From the NCBI GenBank assembly GCA_016875735.1, contig VGOW01000025.1, forward strand, positions 1 through 48,464: 48,464 bases of DNA, read 5' to 3'. Shown piece by piece: positions 426-47,798 of the stretch (positions within the stretch are counted from its first letter, which is position 1; the number at the start of each line of letters is the position of its first letter). Source of the stretch: Chloroflexota bacterium (GTDB lineage Bacteria; Chloroflexota; Anaerolineae; Anaerolineales; VGOW01). The translations under genes were made by a program, and so were the position numbers. A model generated the notes under the pieces. It ran no database searches. It saw nothing but the letters and a program-made list of their open reading frames with translations, and was not told where the DNA came from.

Positions 426-1064
426 ATGACTGTTTTGCCGAACCCCGCCGTTCGCCGGGTGGAAACCATGGGCCGCCCCGGTTGGACACACGAAGACTTC
501 ATGCGCCTCGCGCCGGATGGCGAGAAGGCTGAGTTGATCAATGGAGATATTATCATCATGTCGCCGCCATTCTATGAGCATGAGCGCTTGCAGGTATTCT
601 TGATCACCGTGCTATCAATGTTTGTCGGGCGTTTTTCGTTGGGCGAGGTACTCGGCTCTCGCACGCCCGTCAGAATCTCAGCCGATCAAACCTACGAGCC
701 CGACATCCTTTTCGTGAGCAAGGCCCGCGAGCATATCATCACTCGCTCGGAGGTGACTGAAGCGCCCGATCTGGTGATCGAAATCCTGTCGGGCGGCACG
801 GCCAATTATGATCGCGGCGACAAATTGGCGAATTACGCAAAAGCAGGAGTGCGCGAAGTGTGGCTGATCGATCCGTTTGGCCCCGCTGGAACACAATTCT
901 TTCAACGCCAGAATGACGAATTGATCGAAGTGGCTGACTTGGATGGAATACTGCAATCCATTGCCTTGCCAAACTTCAGACTCAGAACAGCGTGGCTGTG
1001 GCCCGATGCCGCCGGGAATCTGCCGAATCCTTACGATGTGCTGAAAGAACTCGGAGCCATTTGA
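426..1064 (+). CDS. Uma2-family (DUF820) PD-(D/E)XK nuclease-like protein
   Basis: This 212-residue protein has the Uma2/DUF820 layout. An early conserved Glu lies in ELINGDI (E36), the Asp motif EPDILFVS is at 91-98 (D93), the Glu motif PDLVIEILS is at 114-122 (E119), then K133 and the block VREVWLIDP at 142-150. Together these form the restriction-endonuclease-like fold. The family is highly expanded in Chloroflexota and cyanobacteria, and its biological role is not established. Its stop codon overlaps the lipA start by one base, so the two may be co-transcribed. A TAGAAT box about 30 bases upstream could be a -10 element. A second, divergent family member is encoded at 21722-22291. Confidence 0.85.
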
Positions 1065-2017
1065 TGCCCATCACCCCACCCACCCGCGATCGGATCACCC
1101 GGCCCGATGACACCGCCTCCGCGCCCGCGCCATTGCGCCGGCCCGAATGGATCAAAGTGCGCGCGCCCGGCGGCGAGACGTATGAGTCTCTGAAAACATT
1201 GATGCGCGCCAAGACCCTGCACACCGTTTGCGAAGAAGCCATGTGCCCCAACATGGGCGAGTGCTGGGGAAGCGGCACGGCCACCTTCCTCATGATGGGC
1301 GACGTGTGCACCCGCACCTGCGGCTTCTGCGACGTGAAGCATGGCCGCCCCGCGCCGCTCGATTTCGACGAGCCGGAACGCGTGGCGCAGGCGGTGAAAG
1401 CCATGAGCCTTCGCCACGCGGTGATCACCAGCGTGAACCGCGATGAGCGAAAGGATGGCGGCGCTCCGATCTTCGCAATGGTGATTCGGCGCATCCGCGA
1501 GATTCACCCGGGCTGCTCCATCGAAGTGCTCATCCCCGATTTCAAAGGGGACGCCGACGCGCTGAAGATCGTGATGGATGCCCGGCCTGAAATTCTCAAC
1601 CACAACGTCGAGACCGTGCCGAGGCTGTTCAAGAAAGTCCAGCCGCAGGACAACTACGACTGGGCCGCCGCCACCCTCTCCAACGCGAAGAAACTCGACC
1701 CCGACGTGCTCGCCAAATCGGGCCTTATGCTTGGGCTGGGCGAGACGATGGATGAAGTGAAAGCGGTTCTGCGCGATCAGCGCAGTTGGGGCGTGGATAT
1801 TCTCACCGTGGGCCAATATCTTCAACCGTCGAAAAAGCATTTGCCCATCGAGCGTTACTACACCCTCGAAGAGTTCAACGAGATCAAAGAGTACGGATAC
1901 GGAATCGGATTCCGATGGGTCGAGTGCGCCCCGCTGGTTCGCTCGTCATATCATGCCGATCAGCAAGTTTGCGCCTTGAGCGCGGTGCATCGGCAGTTGT
2001 ATGGAAACCATGCCTAA
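1064..2017 (+). CDS. lipA: Lipoyl synthase (radical SAM)
   Basis: LipA inserts two sulfur atoms into the octanoyl chain on lipoyl domains, making the lipoyl cofactor of 2-oxoacid dehydrogenases and the glycine cleavage system. The 317-residue length is normal. The auxiliary cluster cysteines are C56, C61 and C67 ([12 protein letters not shown]). The radical-SAM CX3CX2C motif is C82-C86-C89 (CTRTCGFC), and the conserved RSSYHA lies near the C-terminus. The ATG at 1064 was chosen over the longer frame because it starts right at the preceding stop and gives a normal N-terminus. A lipoyl-bearing E2 protein is encoded at 37485-38792, a likely client. No lipB or lplA is seen nearby. Confidence 0.95.
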
Positions 2018-2372
2018 AGTTCTCCTCGTCGAAGATATTGACGACAACGCCCGATTGCTCGAGCGGGTGCTCTCGGCGCGCGGCTACGAAGTGATGCGAG
2101 CCGCCGACGGCGAGACCGGCCTGCAAATGGCAATCGACAACCGGCCCGATATTTTGCTGCTCGATCTCGGCTTGCCCGACATCGACGGCCAAACGGTGGC
2201 CTCGCAATTGCGCCGCCTCCCCGAACTGGCGTCGACCCCGATCATCATCGTCACCGCTTGGCCCGAAGACGTTGCTCGCAAAATGGTCGAAGTGTACGGT
2301 TGCAACGGATACATCAGCAAGCCGATCAACGTCGCCAAGTTTGCCGATCAAATCGCCTCGTTCCTCCGCTGA
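2010..2372 (+). CDS. Single-domain response regulator (receiver only)
   Basis: A stand-alone CheY-like receiver of about 120 residues with no output domain. Numbered from the ATG at 2010, it has the acidic pair E8/D9, the phospho-acceptor D52 in LLLDLGLPD, the switch Thr T82 in VTAW and the conserved lysine K104 in SKP. The start overlaps the end of lipA. An in-frame ATG at 2001 would add three residues, but the usual receiver N-terminus MPKVLLVED supports 2010. No histidine kinase lies in the window, so its partner is unknown. It is followed after four bases by a damaged acetyltransferase gene. Confidence 0.88.
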
Positions 2373-2376
2373 CACG

Positions 2377-3196
2377 ATGGCTTCACTGTCCCCTTCCGCC
2401 GATCTCGTCCCGGCCACTCAGTTCAGCCTCAAACAACTCACCATCATTTACAACCAAACCCGCGTGGATTATCTCGTGCCGATGCCGATGAACATGGCCC
2501 GCATGCAGGAATACATTCACGTGTACGATGTCGATCTCGCCGACTCGTTCGTCGCCATGCAGGATGGAGAGATGGTGGCGCTGGGGATGCTGGGCGTTCG
2601 CGCCGGGCGACCGCCGACACGGAATCGGCGGATCGTTGATGGCGGCGTTGCTCGGCGCGGCGGAGCGCAAAGGCATCCCGTTCACCATGCTTGAGGTGAT
2701 CAAAAACAATGTGCCCGCCCACAATTTGTTTCTCAAATTCGGCTTTCGTGAAGTGAATGAATTGATGGTGATGCGCCGCCCGCCCGGGCCGCCGCGCGCG
2801 TACCCGGCGAGCAAAGCCGCGTGGCTCAACCGCGCCGACGCGCTGGCTCTGCTCGAAACGCGAAGCGGACTCGCGCCGTGGACGAATCAAACCGAATCGC
2901 TGACCAACGCCAGCGACATCTACGGCCTCACCGTTGCCCTGCCCGATGGCGGGGCAGGGTGGTTGGTCTTTCAACGTCAGCGATTTGTGATGGGGCGTTT
3001 TGTGATGCGCACCGAACGGGGCGACCCCGCCGCTGTGGGCCGCGAACTGCTGGCCCAACTGCATCACCGCTATTTCGATCTCGACACACACACCGAAAAC
3101 ATTTCGGCCGCCGACCCGCACCTGCCCGCGTTTTACGAAGCGGGTTACATCGAGGAGTTTCGGCGCATCGAAATGTATCGCGGCGAAAAGCCGTAG
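2377..3196 (+). pseudogene. GNAT-family N-acetyltransferase, broken by a deletion/frameshift
   Basis: The frame from ATG 2377 reads as the N-terminal half of a GNAT protein, ending at GEMVALGMLGVR. At about 2597-2605 the homology moves to another frame, which continues with GDRRHGIGGSLMAALL (the acetyl-CoA pyrophosphate loop), LEVIKNNVPAHNLFLKFGF and a second GNAT-like half running to 3196. The short beta-strand segment that normally sits between these two parts, about a dozen residues around the W-x-x-x-LGV-x-P motif, is missing. This fits a small out-of-frame deletion rather than a single-base error. As written the protein cannot be made. A local assembly error is possible. Confidence 0.75.
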
Positions 3197-43139: not shown

Positions 43140-43220
43140 TAGAAATGCGCCGAAGGGCGACGAAGGATCAAAGATGAATGACGAATGAAAAAATTCGCCG
43201 TTCGTCGTCTGTCCTTCGTC
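43140..43220. repeat. CGAAGG/GACGAATGA-type repeat before the thiolase gene
   Basis: GGGCGACGAAGGATC (43146-43170 region) and GACGAATG pair imperfectly with CGTTCGTCGTC and GTCCTTCGTCG (43200-43220). An ATG within it (43185) would add 15 repeat-encoded residues to the thiolase. Confidence 0.65.
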
Positions 43221-43229
43221 GATGATTCA

Positions 43230-44390
43230 ATGCGCGAAGTTGCAATTCTCGGAATTGGACAGACCCCCGTTGACGAGCACTGGGAGAAATCACTGCGGCA
43301 CCTGGCCGGCGAGGCCGTCATTGCCGCGCTGGCCGATGCGCACACGGGCGCGGAGCGCCTCGACGCGCTGTACGTCGGCAACATGCTCTCCGGCCCGCTC
43401 AACCGCCAAGAGAACCTCGGCTCGCTCATCGCCGATTGGGTGGGCGCGCGCGGAGCCGAGGCGGCCAAAATCGAAGCGGCCTGCGGATCGGGCGCGGCGG
43501 CTTTTCGCGCCGGATTGATGGCGGTGGCCTCCGGCGCGATGGAGACGGTGGCCGTTGTGGGAGTGGAAAAGATGACCGAAACCGGCGGCCCCTCCACCAC
43601 CGCCAGCCTCGCCACCGCCGCCGACGCCGATTGGGAAGCCGCGCAGGGTCTCTCGTTCGTCGCCATCAATGCCCTCGTCATGCAGCGCTACTTGCACGAG
43701 TATCGCTGGAGCCACAACGACTTCGCCCCGTTTTCGATCAACGCTCACGCCAACGCCGTGCACAACCCCAATGCGCGACTGCGCGAAGCCATCACTGCCA
43801 AAGATTACACTCGCGCGCGGATGGTAGCCGACCCGATCAATTTGCTCGACGCCTCGCCCATCGGCGACGGCGCGGCGGCAGTGATTCTATGCCCGGCCGA
43901 TCGCGCGCGGGGGAACGGACGCCCGGCCATCACGGTGGCGGCCTCCGCTTCGGCCACCGACTCGATTGCCGTGCACGACCGCGACGATCCGCTATGGCTG
44001 GCGGCGGCGCACAAATCGGCGAAGGCCTGTTATGCACAGGCGGGCGTGGGCCCGAACGATATCGACGTGTTCGAGCTTCACGACGCTTTCTCGATCATGG
44101 CCGCGCTCTCGCTCGAAGCGTGCGGCTTTGCCGAACGCGGGCAGGGCGTGCGGTTGGGACTGGAGGGCGAGATCGGCCCGAAAGGCAAACTGCCCATCGC
44201 CACGATGGGCGGGCTGAAGGCGCGCGGGCATCCGGTGGGGGCCACCGGCGTGTATCAATTGGTTGAGGTGGCACAGCAGCTGCGCGGAGAGGCGGCTTCC
44301 ACTCAAGTGGAAGGGGGGCGCATCGGCATGGCGCAGAACATCGGCGGATCGGGAGCGACTATCATCACCCACATCCTCCGCCGCCAGTGA
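43230..44390 (+). CDS. Thiolase (SCP-x / lipid-transfer type acyltransferase)
   Basis: A 386-residue thiolase of the SCP-x-like branch. The nucleophilic cysteine C85 is in EAACGSGAAA, the HDAF motif is in VFELHDAFS, and the C-terminal GGLKARGHPVGATGVYQ is present. The last block, GMAQNIGGSGATIITHIL, is typical of this branch. It may cleave 3-ketoacyl-CoA. Such proteins usually have a DUF35 (OB-fold) partner, not found here. ATG 43230 was chosen because the longer frame reads repeat sequence. Confidence 0.9.
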   Translation: MREVAILGIGQTPVDEHWEKSLRHLAGEAVIAALADAHTGAERLDALYVGNMLSGPLNRQENLGSLIADWVGARGAEAAKIEAACGSGAAAFRAGLMAVASGAMETVAVVGVEKMTETGGPSTTASLATAADADWEAAQGLSFVAINALVMQRYLHEYRWSHNDFAPFSINAHANAVHNPNARLREAITAKDYTRARMVADPINLLDASPIGDGAAAVILCPADRARGNGRPAITVAASASATDSIAVHDRDDPLWLAAAHKSAKACYAQAGVGPNDIDVFELHDAFSIMAALSLEACGFAERGQGVRLGLEGEIGPKGKLPIATMGGLKARGHPVGATGVYQLVEVAQQLRGEAASTQVEGGRIGMAQNIGGSGATIITHILRRQ

Positions 44391-44485: not shown

Positions 44486-45151
44486 ATGCTCAAAGATCGC
44501 CGCACCCTATTTGTTGTGTTCACGATGCTGTGTGCTGTTCTGCTTTTGGCCGCCTGCACCCGGCAAGCCATCACCGAAACCCTGCCCACTGCCCCGCCCG
44601 AAGGCGTCGGCGGTGGGGGCGAGGGCGAGCAGGCCGACGTTGCCGCTACCGAAACCGCCATTGCTAACATGCAGGCGATTCTCTTCGCCGGCCAAACTCA
44701 AACTGCCGAGGCCGTGTTGAGCGGAACGGGCGGCGGCGATGTGGCTACTCCCACTCCCACCGCGCCCGCTGTTGTCGCTCCCACTGCCACTCCGCCGCCT
44801 CCTCCCACCGCCACCGCCGCCGGCCCCAAACAATACACGGTGAAGCCCGGCGACTGGTTGTACAAGATCGCGCGCGAGAACGGTGTCAGCCCCGAAGCGT
44901 TGATCGCCGCCAACCCCAACATCAATCCGGACTCAGTGTTGAAGCCGGGCACGGTGCTCAACATCCCCGCCGCTGGCTCGCCCGCGCCCGGCGGCGCAAC
45001 CACTGGCGAAAAAACGTATGTGGTGAAGTCGGGCGACAACTTATTCCGCATCGCGTTGAACAACGACACGACCCTCGAAACGCTGGCGCAGCTCAACGGC
45101 ATCTCTGCGCCCTATACGGTGTACCCGGGCCAAGTGCTCAAACTGCCGTAA
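44486..45151 (+). CDS. Lipoprotein with two LysM domains
   Basis: A 221-residue surface lipoprotein: a signal ending LLLAAC (lipobox, Cys24), a Gly/Glu- and then Pro/Thr/Ala-rich linker (~35-115), and two LysM domains (about 117-160 and 173-220; KQYTVKPGDWLYKIA and KTYVVKSGDNLFRIA). It would anchor in the membrane and bind peptidoglycan-like glycan. GGAGGAACTCC before ATG 44486 is a good ribosome-binding site. A terminator follows. Confidence 0.92.
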   Translation: MLKDRRTLFVVFTMLCAVLLLAACTRQAITETLPTAPPEGVGGGGEGEQADVAATETAIANMQAILFAGQTQTAEAVLSGTGGGDVATPTPTAPAVVAPTATPPPPPTATAAGPKQYTVKPGDWLYKIARENGVSPEALIAANPNINPDSVLKPGTVLNIPAAGSPAPGGATTGEKTYVVKSGDNLFRIALNNDTTLETLAQLNGISAPYTVYPGQVLKLP

Positions 45152-45210: not shown

Positions 45211-45278
45211 GCGTGTAAGAGGGCAAGGTTAGGGCGGGTCTCAGACCGGCCCGTACGGGGTTATGTGTGGAGGCAACA

Positions 45279-45800
45279 GTGATCAAAGTCCTTTCTTCTC
45301 AACGAGTGTTTTCGGGACGGGCGTTCAGCATTCGAGTGGATCAAGTGAGCGCGAACGGGGGGCCGCCGATGCAGTGGGAAGTGCTGGAGCATACCGGCGG
45401 CGTGGCCGTCGTGCCGATAGATGACAACGGCGAGGTGCTGATGGTGCGGCAGTATCGCCATTCGGTGGGGGAAGCGTTGTTGGAGCTGCCAGCCGGAACG
45501 GTGAAGCGCGGCGAAGACCATGCCGAGTGCGCCGCGCGCGAATTGCAGGAGGAGGTGGGCATGGCCGCCGCGCGCCTCGATCTCATCGGCGAGTTTTTTC
45601 TCGCGCCGGGTTATTCGTCGGAACTCATGCGCGTGTATTTGGCCTCGGGACTTACGCCCTCCTCACTGCCGCAGGATGAAGATGAAGAGATTGCCGTCGA
45701 GCGCGTCCCGTTCGCCGACGCGGTGCGGCTGGCCCTGAGCGGAAGCATCCGCGACGCGAAATCGGTGGCCGGGCTGTTGCTCGCGGCGCACAAGAGGTGA
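45279..45800 (+). CDS. NUDIX hydrolase (ADP-ribose pyrophosphatase-like)
   Basis: A 173-residue protein. The Nudix box is GTVKRGEDHAECAARELQEEVGM, with the metal-binding REXXEE core. Downstream are APGYSSELMRVYLA and acidic DEDEEI, which with HTGGVAVVPIDDNGEVLMVRQYRH match the ADP-ribose pyrophosphatase subgroup. GTG 45279 fits best because GGAGG lies five bases upstream; a GTG at 45267 would lie before this site. The SDR gene follows after three bases. Confidence 0.88.
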   Translation: MIKVLSSQRVFSGRAFSIRVDQVSANGGPPMQWEVLEHTGGVAVVPIDDNGEVLMVRQYRHSVGEALLELPAGTVKRGEDHAECAARELQEEVGMAAARLDLIGEFFLAPGYSSELMRVYLASGLTPSSLPQDEDEEIAVERVPFADAVRLALSGSIRDAKSVAGLLLAAHKR

Positions 45801-45803
45801 GTC

Positions 45804-46523
45804 ATGCGCAACATGATTATCTTTGGCGCGAGCCGCGGGCTGGGCGCGGCGTTCAATTCCGGCTTGCCAGAGCGCGGCGACACGGTGTGGCTCGTGTCGC
45901 GCAGCCAGCCGGAGCGATTGCAAAGCGACGAGGGCGTGAAGCGCATTTGGGTGCGCGCTGATCTGCGGAAGCCCGGCGCCGCCGACTCCATTGCCGGGGC
46001 AGTGGGCGGCCAACCGCTCGACGTGTTGATCTACAACGCCGGGATTTGGGAAGCAAGCGCCTTCGGCCCCGAATACAAATTCGAGCGGGTGAGCGCCGAA
46101 GAGAATTTGGACGTCTTGGCCGTCAATCTTCTTTCGCCCGTGTTGTGTCTGCAAAAATTGATTCCGAATCTGCGGAAGTCGAGCAACGCCAAAGTGATTC
46201 TGATCGGCTCCATTTCGGGTTTAGAAAACAACGGCGGGCGCGAGGTGGCCTACGACGCCTCGAAGTTCGGTTTGCGCGGGGCGGCTCATGCGCTCCGCGA
46301 GTATCTGCGAAAGGATCGGATCGCGGTGACGGTGCTCAACCCCGGCAGTATCGACACCGATACGCCGTTCGAGGCGGGAGTGGAAGCATCAGTGGCGGCT
46401 TCCAAAGGGAAGTTGATTCCGGTTCACGATCTGGTGGCCGTTGTGAACTGCGTGATCAATCTGTCGAAAGCCACATGTCCGAAAGAGATCGACATCCCGG
46501 CGATGGCCGATGTGGAAGCGTGA
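45804..46523 (+). CDS. Short-chain dehydrogenase/reductase
   Basis: A 239-residue SDR. The NAD(P) motif GASRGLG is at 8-14, NAG is at 78-80, and the catalytic Ser, Tyr and Lys are in IGSISG, Y150 and K154 (YDASK). A basic residue (R11, R33) after the first strand suggests NADP preference. It starts three bases after the NUDIX gene and is followed by the SRPBCC fusion after 12 bases, so the three are likely one operon. The substrate is unknown. Confidence 0.9.
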   Translation: MRNMIIFGASRGLGAAFNSGLPERGDTVWLVSRSQPERLQSDEGVKRIWVRADLRKPGAADSIAGAVGGQPLDVLIYNAGIWEASAFGPEYKFERVSAEENLDVLAVNLLSPVLCLQKLIPNLRKSSNAKVILIGSISGLENNGGREVAYDASKFGLRGAAHALREYLRKDRIAVTVLNPGSIDTDTPFEAGVEASVAASKGKLIPVHDLVAVVNCVINLSKATCPKEIDIPAMADVEA

Positions 46524-46535
46524 AAGGAGATTGCT

Positions 46536-47798
46536 ATGTCAACGCCCAAAGCGTCATCCAAAAAATCGAAAGCCCCCAACTCAAACTCAAACTCATCTCA
46601 ACTCACCTTTCGCCAAACCGTGAACGCGCCGCCCGCCGAGGCGTTCCGCGCCTTCACTCACGCCACACTGCTGCGCGATTGGCTGTGCGACGCCGCGCAA
46701 ACCGATCCGCGCAAAGGCGGGCGCGTGTATCTGTGGTGGAACGATGGCTATTATGCTTGCGGCGCGTACACGGTATTCGAGCCCGGCAGAAAGATCGCTT
46801 TCGGTTGGGATGGCTATAACGAGCCGGGTGTGATGAGTGTGAGCGTGACTTTCAAAGAGAAGAATGGAGCGACGGTGGTGACGCTTGCCCATAACGGAAT
46901 CGGTTCGGGCAAGATGTGGGCCGACACACGGCGCGCGGTGGAATCGGATTGGCCTTCATTATTGGAGAATCTCAAATCGGTTTTGGAGGCGGGCATCGAT
47001 TTGCGCGTCGCCCGGCGGCCCCGCCTCGGCATCTTCATTGAACGGTTCGATGCGGCGATTGTGAAAGAGATCGGCGCGCCGGTGAAGGATGGGATTCGAC
47101 TCGGAGGCACGGCAGAGGGGAGCGGGGCGCGCGCCGCCGGTTTGCAGAAGGACGACGTGATTGTGAGGTTTGCCGGAAAGCAGGTGAACGCGGTCACACT
47201 GGGCGGTGTGGCGCAAAACTTCAAGGCAGGGGACACAGTGCCGGTGGTGTTTTATCGCGGAGCGGAAAAGAAAACGGCAATGTTGGAGTTGTCGAGCTTC
47301 CCGATCCCAGAAGTTCCGGCGACGGGCGCGGAGTTAGCCGAGACGGCGCGCAAAAATTATGAGGCGCTCGACTCCGAACTCGAAAATACGCTGGCCGGGT
47401 TGACCGAGTCCGAAGCCGATCACAAAGCGGGCAATGAATGGAGCGTGAAAGAATTGATCGCTCATCTCACTGCCGCTGAACGCGATTTCCAGTCGTGGGT
47501 GGCCGATATGCTCAACGATACGCCCATCGAGGATGATATTGAGATGCGCCCCAATGTGGATGTGCGCCTGCGGGCGATGGTGGAACGATTCGGAACGCTG
47601 GCGGCTCTGCTGAACGAACTGAAGCAGGCGCAGGCCGAGACGGTGTCACTGCTGGCCTCTCTGCCGCCTGCGTTGGTGGCGCGCAAGCATCTCTATCGCC
47701 GGGCGGCGCTGTGGATGCTGGAGGTCGTGCCCGGCCATTATCGCGAAGAGCACAGCGAGCAATTGCGCGCGGCGATTGCGGCGGCAAAGAAAGCGTAG
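46536..47798 (+). CDS. SRPBCC (AHSA1-like) - PDZ - DinB three-domain fusion protein
   Basis: A 420-residue protein. Residues about 22-152 are an AHSA1-like START-fold domain (FRQTVNAPPAEAFRAFTHATLLRDWL, GRKIAFGWDGY, VVTLAHNGIG). About 157-258 is a PDZ domain (LGIFIERFD, DGIRLGGTAEGSGARAAGLQKDDVIVRFAGKQV). About 265-415 is a DinB-like four-helix domain (NEWSVKELIAHLTAAERDFQSWV). DinB enzymes are often metal- and thiol-dependent transferases; the His of AHL(T)AAE and a late H (PGHYREEHSEQ) are visible, which would fit metal binding. The N-terminus is Ser/Lys-rich. AAAGGAGA lies upstream. No known protein with this exact order comes to mind. Confidence 0.85.
   Translation: MSTPKASSKKSKAPNSNSNSSQLTFRQTVNAPPAEAFRAFTHATLLRDWLCDAAQTDPRKGGRVYLWWNDGYYACGAYTVFEPGRKIAFGWDGYNEPGVMSVSVTFKEKNGATVVTLAHNGIGSGKMWADTRRAVESDWPSLLENLKSVLEAGIDLRVARRPRLGIFIERFDAAIVKEIGAPVKDGIRLGGTAEGSGARAAGLQKDDVIVRFAGKQVNAVTLGGVAQNFKAGDTVPVVFYRGAEKKTAMLELSSFPIPEVPATGAELAETARKNYEALDSELENTLAGLTESEADHKAGNEWSVKELIAHLTAAERDFQSWVADMLNDTPIEDDIEMRPNVDVRLRAMVERFGTLAALLNELKQAQAETVSLLASLPPALVARKHLYRRAALWMLEVVPGHYREEHSEQLRAAIAAAKKA

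Follow-up and report, generated by a model that had tools for sequence, protein, structure and literature searches.

An AHSA1-PDZ-DinB fusion protein family of Anaerolineae (Chloroflexota)

Near the right end of the window (the whole 48,464-nucleotide stretch of Chloroflexota DNA analysed here, contig VGOW01000025.1), one gene encodes a protein in which an AHSA1/SRPBCC domain, a PDZ domain and a DinB domain follow one another in one chain, and this combination is a stable family that is so far found almost only in Anaerolineae (Chloroflexota). Each of the three domains is well known; as far as literature searches reach, their combination constitutes an undescribed, lineage-bound family, and no paper was found that pairs the SRPBCC/AHSA1, PDZ and DinB domain names. 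The initial annotation had described them as domains not usually combined, which agrees with the literature, although the protein belongs to a stable Anaerolineae family and is not a one-off. The family provides a handle on two subjects, namely the role of a cytosolic HtrA-type PDZ domain outside a protease, and which low-molecular-weight thiol, if any, is used by DinB/STL proteins in those Chloroflexota in which the tested genes for bacillithiol and mycothiol are missing. If neither the thiol nor the PDZ point is special, the protein would be an ordinary lineage-specific domain fusion.

Gene and domain architecture

The gene is a single ATG-initiated open reading frame (ORF) of 420 codons on the plus strand, and the Pfam matches of its product give the domain order AHSA1-PDZ-DinB (Table 1). 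It is the last member of a tight plus-strand run of NUDIX, SDR and fusion genes, separated by gaps of 3 and 12 bases, and the operon suggested in the initial annotation is upheld at this locus. No tRNA genes were detected in the window, and a PHROGs scan returned a sole match, located in the PDZ region and of unknown function. The whole chain was predicted by AlphaFold2, using a 77-row alignment, as one confident model (pLDDT 93.1, pTM 0.87). A chance frame or a mis-joined ORF can be dismissed, because 76 homologues, sharing 28-44% identity, preserve the whole architecture; together with the Pfam and NCBIfam matches and the confident model, this bears out the earlier description of three domains in one 420-residue frame. 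The protein contains no strongly hydrophobic segment (best 19-residue hydrophobicity mean 1.06), which fits the cytoplasmic location that had been proposed from the sequence.

Table 1. Positions of the fusion gene, its domains and key residues, and its upstream neighbours in the window
Feature	Position	Strand	Basis
NUDIX hydrolase gene, likely in the same operon as the fusion gene	45267..45800	+	Pfam NUDIX, E 7.1e-20
Short-chain dehydrogenase (SDR) gene, likely in the same operon as the fusion gene	45804..46523	+	Pfam adh_short, E 1.4e-28
AGGAG ribosome-binding site, just 5' of the fusion gene	46525..46529	+	Sequence
ORF of 420 codons, AHSA1-PDZ-DinB fusion protein	46536..47798	+	ORF, Pfam, structure model, family alignment
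AHSA1/SRPBCC domain with C-terminal helix, residues 20-157	46593..47006	+	Boundaries from predicted structure
AHSA1-PDZ junction, residues 139-157	46950..47006	+	Best conserved stretch of the family
HtrA-type PDZ domain, residues 158-254, peptide-loop position R-P-x-L-G-I	47007..47297	+	Pfam, NCBIfam, structure match, conservation
DinB/STL four-helix domain, residues 264-420	47325..47795	+	Pfam, separate fold, structure matches
His310, first histidine of the DinB metal triad	47463..47465	+	Conserved in 77/77
His401 to His406, HxxxxH in the genus subclade versus HxxxH elsewhere	47736..47753	+	Alignment, tree

The N-terminal domain matches Pfam AHSA1 (PF08327) over residues 30-151 with 69.6 bits, above the cut-off of 22.1 (E 3.8e-19). 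In structure searches with the predicted model, this part adopts a helix-grip fold that superimposes on 3q63 (Z 19.9, rmsd 1.8 over 131 residues), and it also matches the C-terminal domain of human Aha1 (8z3h; Z 17.5, rmsd 2.1 over 128 residues), while phmmer relates it to 2lak (E 5.6e-9). The likeness to the AHSA1-like SRPBCC proteins RHE_CH02687 (2lak) and MLL2253 (3q63) extends across the whole domain, the difference being that in the window protein the domain is fused to PDZ and DinB. No N-terminal Aha1 domain is present among the matches of the protein in a general Pfam scan.

For the central domain, the Pfam PDZ_2 match (residues 193-252, E 1.6e-5) scores 25.5 bits, slightly below the cut-off of 27, and the assignment is backed by the NCBIfam Do/HtrA protease model, which covers residues 147-317 (E 1.3e-10), and by the structure of the DegP PDZ domain 3otp, which aligns with model residues 160-255 (Z 16.2, rmsd 1.5 over 96 residues, 22% identity). 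The fold and the R-x-x-L-G-I loop position are shared with the PDZ1 domain of HtrA/DegP; unlike HtrA/DegP, the window protein has neither a Pfam protease-domain match nor a strongly hydrophobic segment. At the x-L-G-I/V loop position, Gly165 is conserved in all 77 aligned family members, Arg161 in 66 and Leu164 in 65, and the peptide loop of the fusion protein looks intact at the level of these residues. A self-ligand for the domain was also considered and none is evident, the last residue of the chain being mostly Lys (26/77) and V, I, L, F, M, W or Y in just 8/77.

Distribution and conservation of the family

Within the class, 34 of 298 genomes carry the fusion, the window's own included, where a carrier is defined by a match at E <= 1e-30 across the protein or most of it; one carrier, G069, matched only residues 25-318, and its 412-residue frame has all three domains. 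Sampling 400 genomes across the phylum gave 16 full-length matches, all from the window's own genome, order or class; the remaining matches at E <= 1e-20 were each confined to a single domain. An alignment-based scan of 84,980 named species genomes found at least 79 loci, a lower bound in that the scan rests on one DinB motif. All of them have Chloroflexota-type titles except L096, a full-length locus whose Bipolaricaulota title is the sole basis for its placement, and L109, which has a Gemmatimonadales title and contains the DinB part only. At a finer level, three of the four other genomes of the window's own family have a copy or a piece of the fusion; in the remaining one, G582 (97% complete), a lone AHSA1 match is all that appears.

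The family alignment (A2) comprises 76 of these loci and the window, 77 members altogether, and leaves out two cut loci (L097 and L101) and the DinB-only L109. Pfam detects AHSA1 and DinB_2 in 77/77 members and PDZ_2 in 75/77, and the residues W49, G76, W139, N145, L146, G153, D155, R157, G165, G186, R241, W302, H310, L311 and H406 are invariant in all of them. Conservation is highest at the AHSA1-PDZ junction, where the mean top-residue share across the 77 members is 0.76, compared with 0.53 for AHSA1, 0.58 for PDZ and 0.52 for DinB. The possibility that this stretch is a signature created by the fusion was ruled out, because the standalone AHSA1 proteins L133 and L139 terminate in the same motif; the motif thus predates the fusion and is part of the parent AHSA1 lineage, with the sequence ends of L133 and L139 pointing to the lineage from which the N-terminal domain of the fusion would have come. 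These standalone frames, at 1498-2541 (minus strand) of L133 and 1489-2334 (minus strand) of L139, belong to another class of the phylum.

Candidates for two-domain intermediates were rejected upon inspection. The partial AHSA1 matches in frames of 311 and 342 residues proved to be double AHSA1 proteins, the frames with partial DinB matches in G148 and G061 (contig C21) were judged HAD-like by eye from their first residues, and an AHSA1-DinB fusion without PDZ was not found in the few loci read. A split arrangement of the two domains occurs at L149, where a double-AHSA1 gene lies beside a separate DinB_2 gene (626-2136, minus strand). Tandem second copies of the fusion gene, encoding all three domains, are present in L067, L068, L071, L084 and L140 (genome G659), although the L140 copy is missing its N-terminal part.

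The DinB domain and its metal-site histidines

The C-terminal domain matches Pfam DinB_2 (PF12867) over residues 277-402 with 39.0 bits, above the cut-off of 24.8 (E 1.4e-9), so that the DinB assignment of the initial annotation, like the PDZ assignment, stands. Since AHSA1 and PDZ matches dominated the structure search with the whole model, the DinB region was folded alone, which gave a pLDDT of 93.8 and matches to 5cog (Z 13.8, rmsd 3.4 over 152 residues) and YfiT 1rxq (Z 12.9, rmsd 4.0 over 148 residues), with a best Foldseek E of only 4.9e-3. For helical bundles, a Z near 13 is by itself weak, and the assignment therefore leans on the Pfam score and on the matches of the DinB-region profile to the YfiT-like 2rd9 (E 1.3e-5, with all three histidines aligned) and to YfiT 1rxq (E 0.0055). 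The shared fold, the DinB_2 match and the three histidines at matching positions connect the domain with the DinB/STL superfamily, including YfiT/BstA, MST and the N-terminal domain of EgtB, from which it differs in following AHSA1 and PDZ domains, in occurring in genomes without the bacillithiol and mycothiol genes tested, and, in the window subclade, in an HxxxxH motif.

The nearest structures of the DinB model also include ClbS (6anr, and 7mtl in complex with dsDNA) and its relatives. ClbS is a cyclopropane hydrolase, and these neighbours would suit a protein of its kind, a hydrolase or protective factor acting by the opening of reactive rings or by DNA binding, with non-thiol chemistry in a DinB fold; this reading is regarded as improbable, as the likeness is in fold only, YfiT, EgtB and MST rank almost level with ClbS, and the sequence-profile matches are of the YfiT type and not of the ClbS type.

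The metal-site histidines, whose retention the initial annotation had proposed to check, are present in the window protein as H310, H401 and H406, although the spacing of the last pair deviates from that of the family. His310 and His406 are conserved in 77/77 members and the second histidine at its aligned column in 76/77; Glu315 is found in 73/77 and, with His310 and the HxxxH pair, ranks among the most conserved DinB residues. The pair reads HxxxH in 76/76 homologues, whereas H401 and H406 of the window copy are five apart, giving HxxxxH. The same HxxxxH occurs in two genus relatives, copy 1 of L140 and the fragment L142, the former belonging to a tandem pair of fusion genes (L140, 1498-3903) whose copy 2 has HxxxH and lacks the N-terminal part. 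In a tree of 101 of the 115 family rows, the other 14 being identical duplicates, the window groups with L140 copy 1 and with L141 (which is cut before the His401-His406 region) in a clade with 100/100 support, and L140 copy 2 groups with L002-L004. On the alignment and tree, HxxxxH is thus a heritable genus-level trait of one paralogue and does not stem from a sequencing error. If the helix is straight, HxxxxH would point the two histidines apart, and a helix bulge could rescue the site. The metal site of the window-type paralogue may thus have been reshaped or lost through a one-residue insertion between its last two histidines, and the HxxxxH of the window copy may be incapable of metal binding.

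Thiol and Hsp90 genes, gene neighbours and proposed function

The STL fold, the histidine triad and a weak Pfam MST match in 25/77 members would be compatible with a BstA/MST-type thiol S-transferase dependent on bacillithiol or mycothiol, in which AHSA1 and PDZ would be accessory domains. The gene content of the carriers speaks against it: BshC is found in 0/34 carriers (7/298 class genomes) and MshC over the cut-off in 0/34, with sub-cut-off matches appearing in all 14 controls as well. The carrier genomes are drafts, in which single gene absences are soft. An EgtD-like family exceeds the cut-off in 2/34 carriers, strongly in one, and GCS2 is found in 16/34, the window genome not among them; none of BshC, MshC, EgtD-like and GCS2 is over the cut-off in the window genome. 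Scaffolded enzyme activity, as suggested in the initial annotation, is possible; the thiol part of that suggestion is weakened by the lack of BshC and of MshC over the cut-off in the 34 carriers, and the bacillithiol or mycothiol transferase is considered highly improbable.

The resemblance of the N-terminal domain to the C-terminal domain of human Aha1, together with the HSP90 gene of the window genome, raises a further possibility, a co-chaperone of Hsp90 (HtpG) acting in the manner of Aha1, in which PDZ would catch client tails. Most carrier genomes differ from this picture, HSP90 being found in only 10/34 and not in the other 24, including the single-contig genomes G027, G213 and G228, and the AHSA1 fold is common to many small-molecule binders. 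This reading is the least probable of those weighed. With BshC and MshC missing from the carriers and HSP90 confined to 10/34, the thiol transferase and the Hsp90 co-chaperone are both poor as general readings of the fusion.

The gene neighbourhood yields no substrate pathway, since no operon partner recurs across the family. Outside the genus, no close NUDIX homologue adjoins the fusion; within it, L141 has one with 72% identity, and in L152 a NUDIX gene likewise lies upstream of the fusion. In none of 80 homologous loci was an SDR seen next to the gene, the best match being 26% identical at 4.5 kb; the operon noted in the window is accordingly ruled out as a functional clue beyond the genus. 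Among the same-strand neighbours (35 upstream and 38 downstream proteins, in a survey that omits L033, L041, L073, L082, L094, L097 and L140, where the target was lost to longer overlapping frames), no family dominates. Downstream, AHSA1 and DinB_2 are the most frequent, with 5/38 each, and four of these proteins are tandem fusion copies.

Given the absences of thiol genes, HSP90 and operon partners, the leading reading is that the protein works in the cytosol as a DinB metalloenzyme, with AHSA1 supplying a substrate pocket and PDZ serving for docking; this is put forward tentatively and at somewhat under even chance. Work on Bacillus subtilis describes eight STL proteins that are metal-dependent thiol transferases and share no fully conserved residues besides H67/H160/H164, and states that the second domain of two-domain STL enzymes most likely selects the non-thiol substrate (PMC5815605). 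By analogy with these two-domain enzymes, AHSA1 would be the substrate pocket and PDZ the docking site. On this reading the fusion belongs to the DinB/STL (S-transferase-like) superfamily as a multidomain protein of the cytosol, in which the DinB domain would bind a metal ion and form the catalytic part, the START-fold cavity of AHSA1 would hold a hydrophobic small molecule and set the non-thiol substrate, and PDZ would dock the C-terminal tail of a partner protein. It would probably act on a small electrophilic or hydrophobic compound, modifying or detoxifying it with a thiol that is neither bacillithiol nor mycothiol, or through a non-thiol reaction.

The main rival is a non-catalytic adaptor made up of three binding modules, in which PDZ would capture C-terminal tails, the DinB bundle would be structural or dimerising, and a ligand or client would be bound by AHSA1. 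Such a protein would agree with the lack of a fixed enzyme partner family-wide, with the missing known STL thiol pathways of the carriers, and with the window subclade, which alters the histidine spacing yet retains the gene; against it, His310, the HxxxH pair and Glu315 rank among the most conserved DinB residues, for which an adaptor would have no use, and this rival is rated as possible and doubtful. Returning to the DinB metalloenzyme, a fuller and distinctly speculative scenario, unlikely as a whole, is that Anaerolineae made an STL metalloenzyme PDZ-addressed, with PDZ directing it to a partner, AHSA1 handing over the substrate and DinB using a thiol or chemistry new to these bacteria, and that one genus split the gene into two paralogues, one of which was rebuilt with HxxxxH.

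A Ser/Thr kinase gene is located near the fusion in 15 loci, on the same strand and on either side, at distances of 80 bases to 7.8 kb, and the 15 kinases are >50% identical to one another's reference; all 15 loci lie in one 32-row Anaerolineales clade. As a functional partner the kinase was set aside, and its proximity is interpreted as local synteny, given that the distance and the side differ between loci and that other genes lie in between. The kinase loci include L060 (3-2231), L075 (11330-13627), L078 (7684-9792), L050 (7758-9857) and L065 (7610-9688). Upstream of the NUDIX gene in the window, a protein with two LysM domains at 44486-45151 adjoins a thiolase gene at 43185-44390, and in L141 the LysM and NUDIX homologues are both located upstream of the fusion gene.
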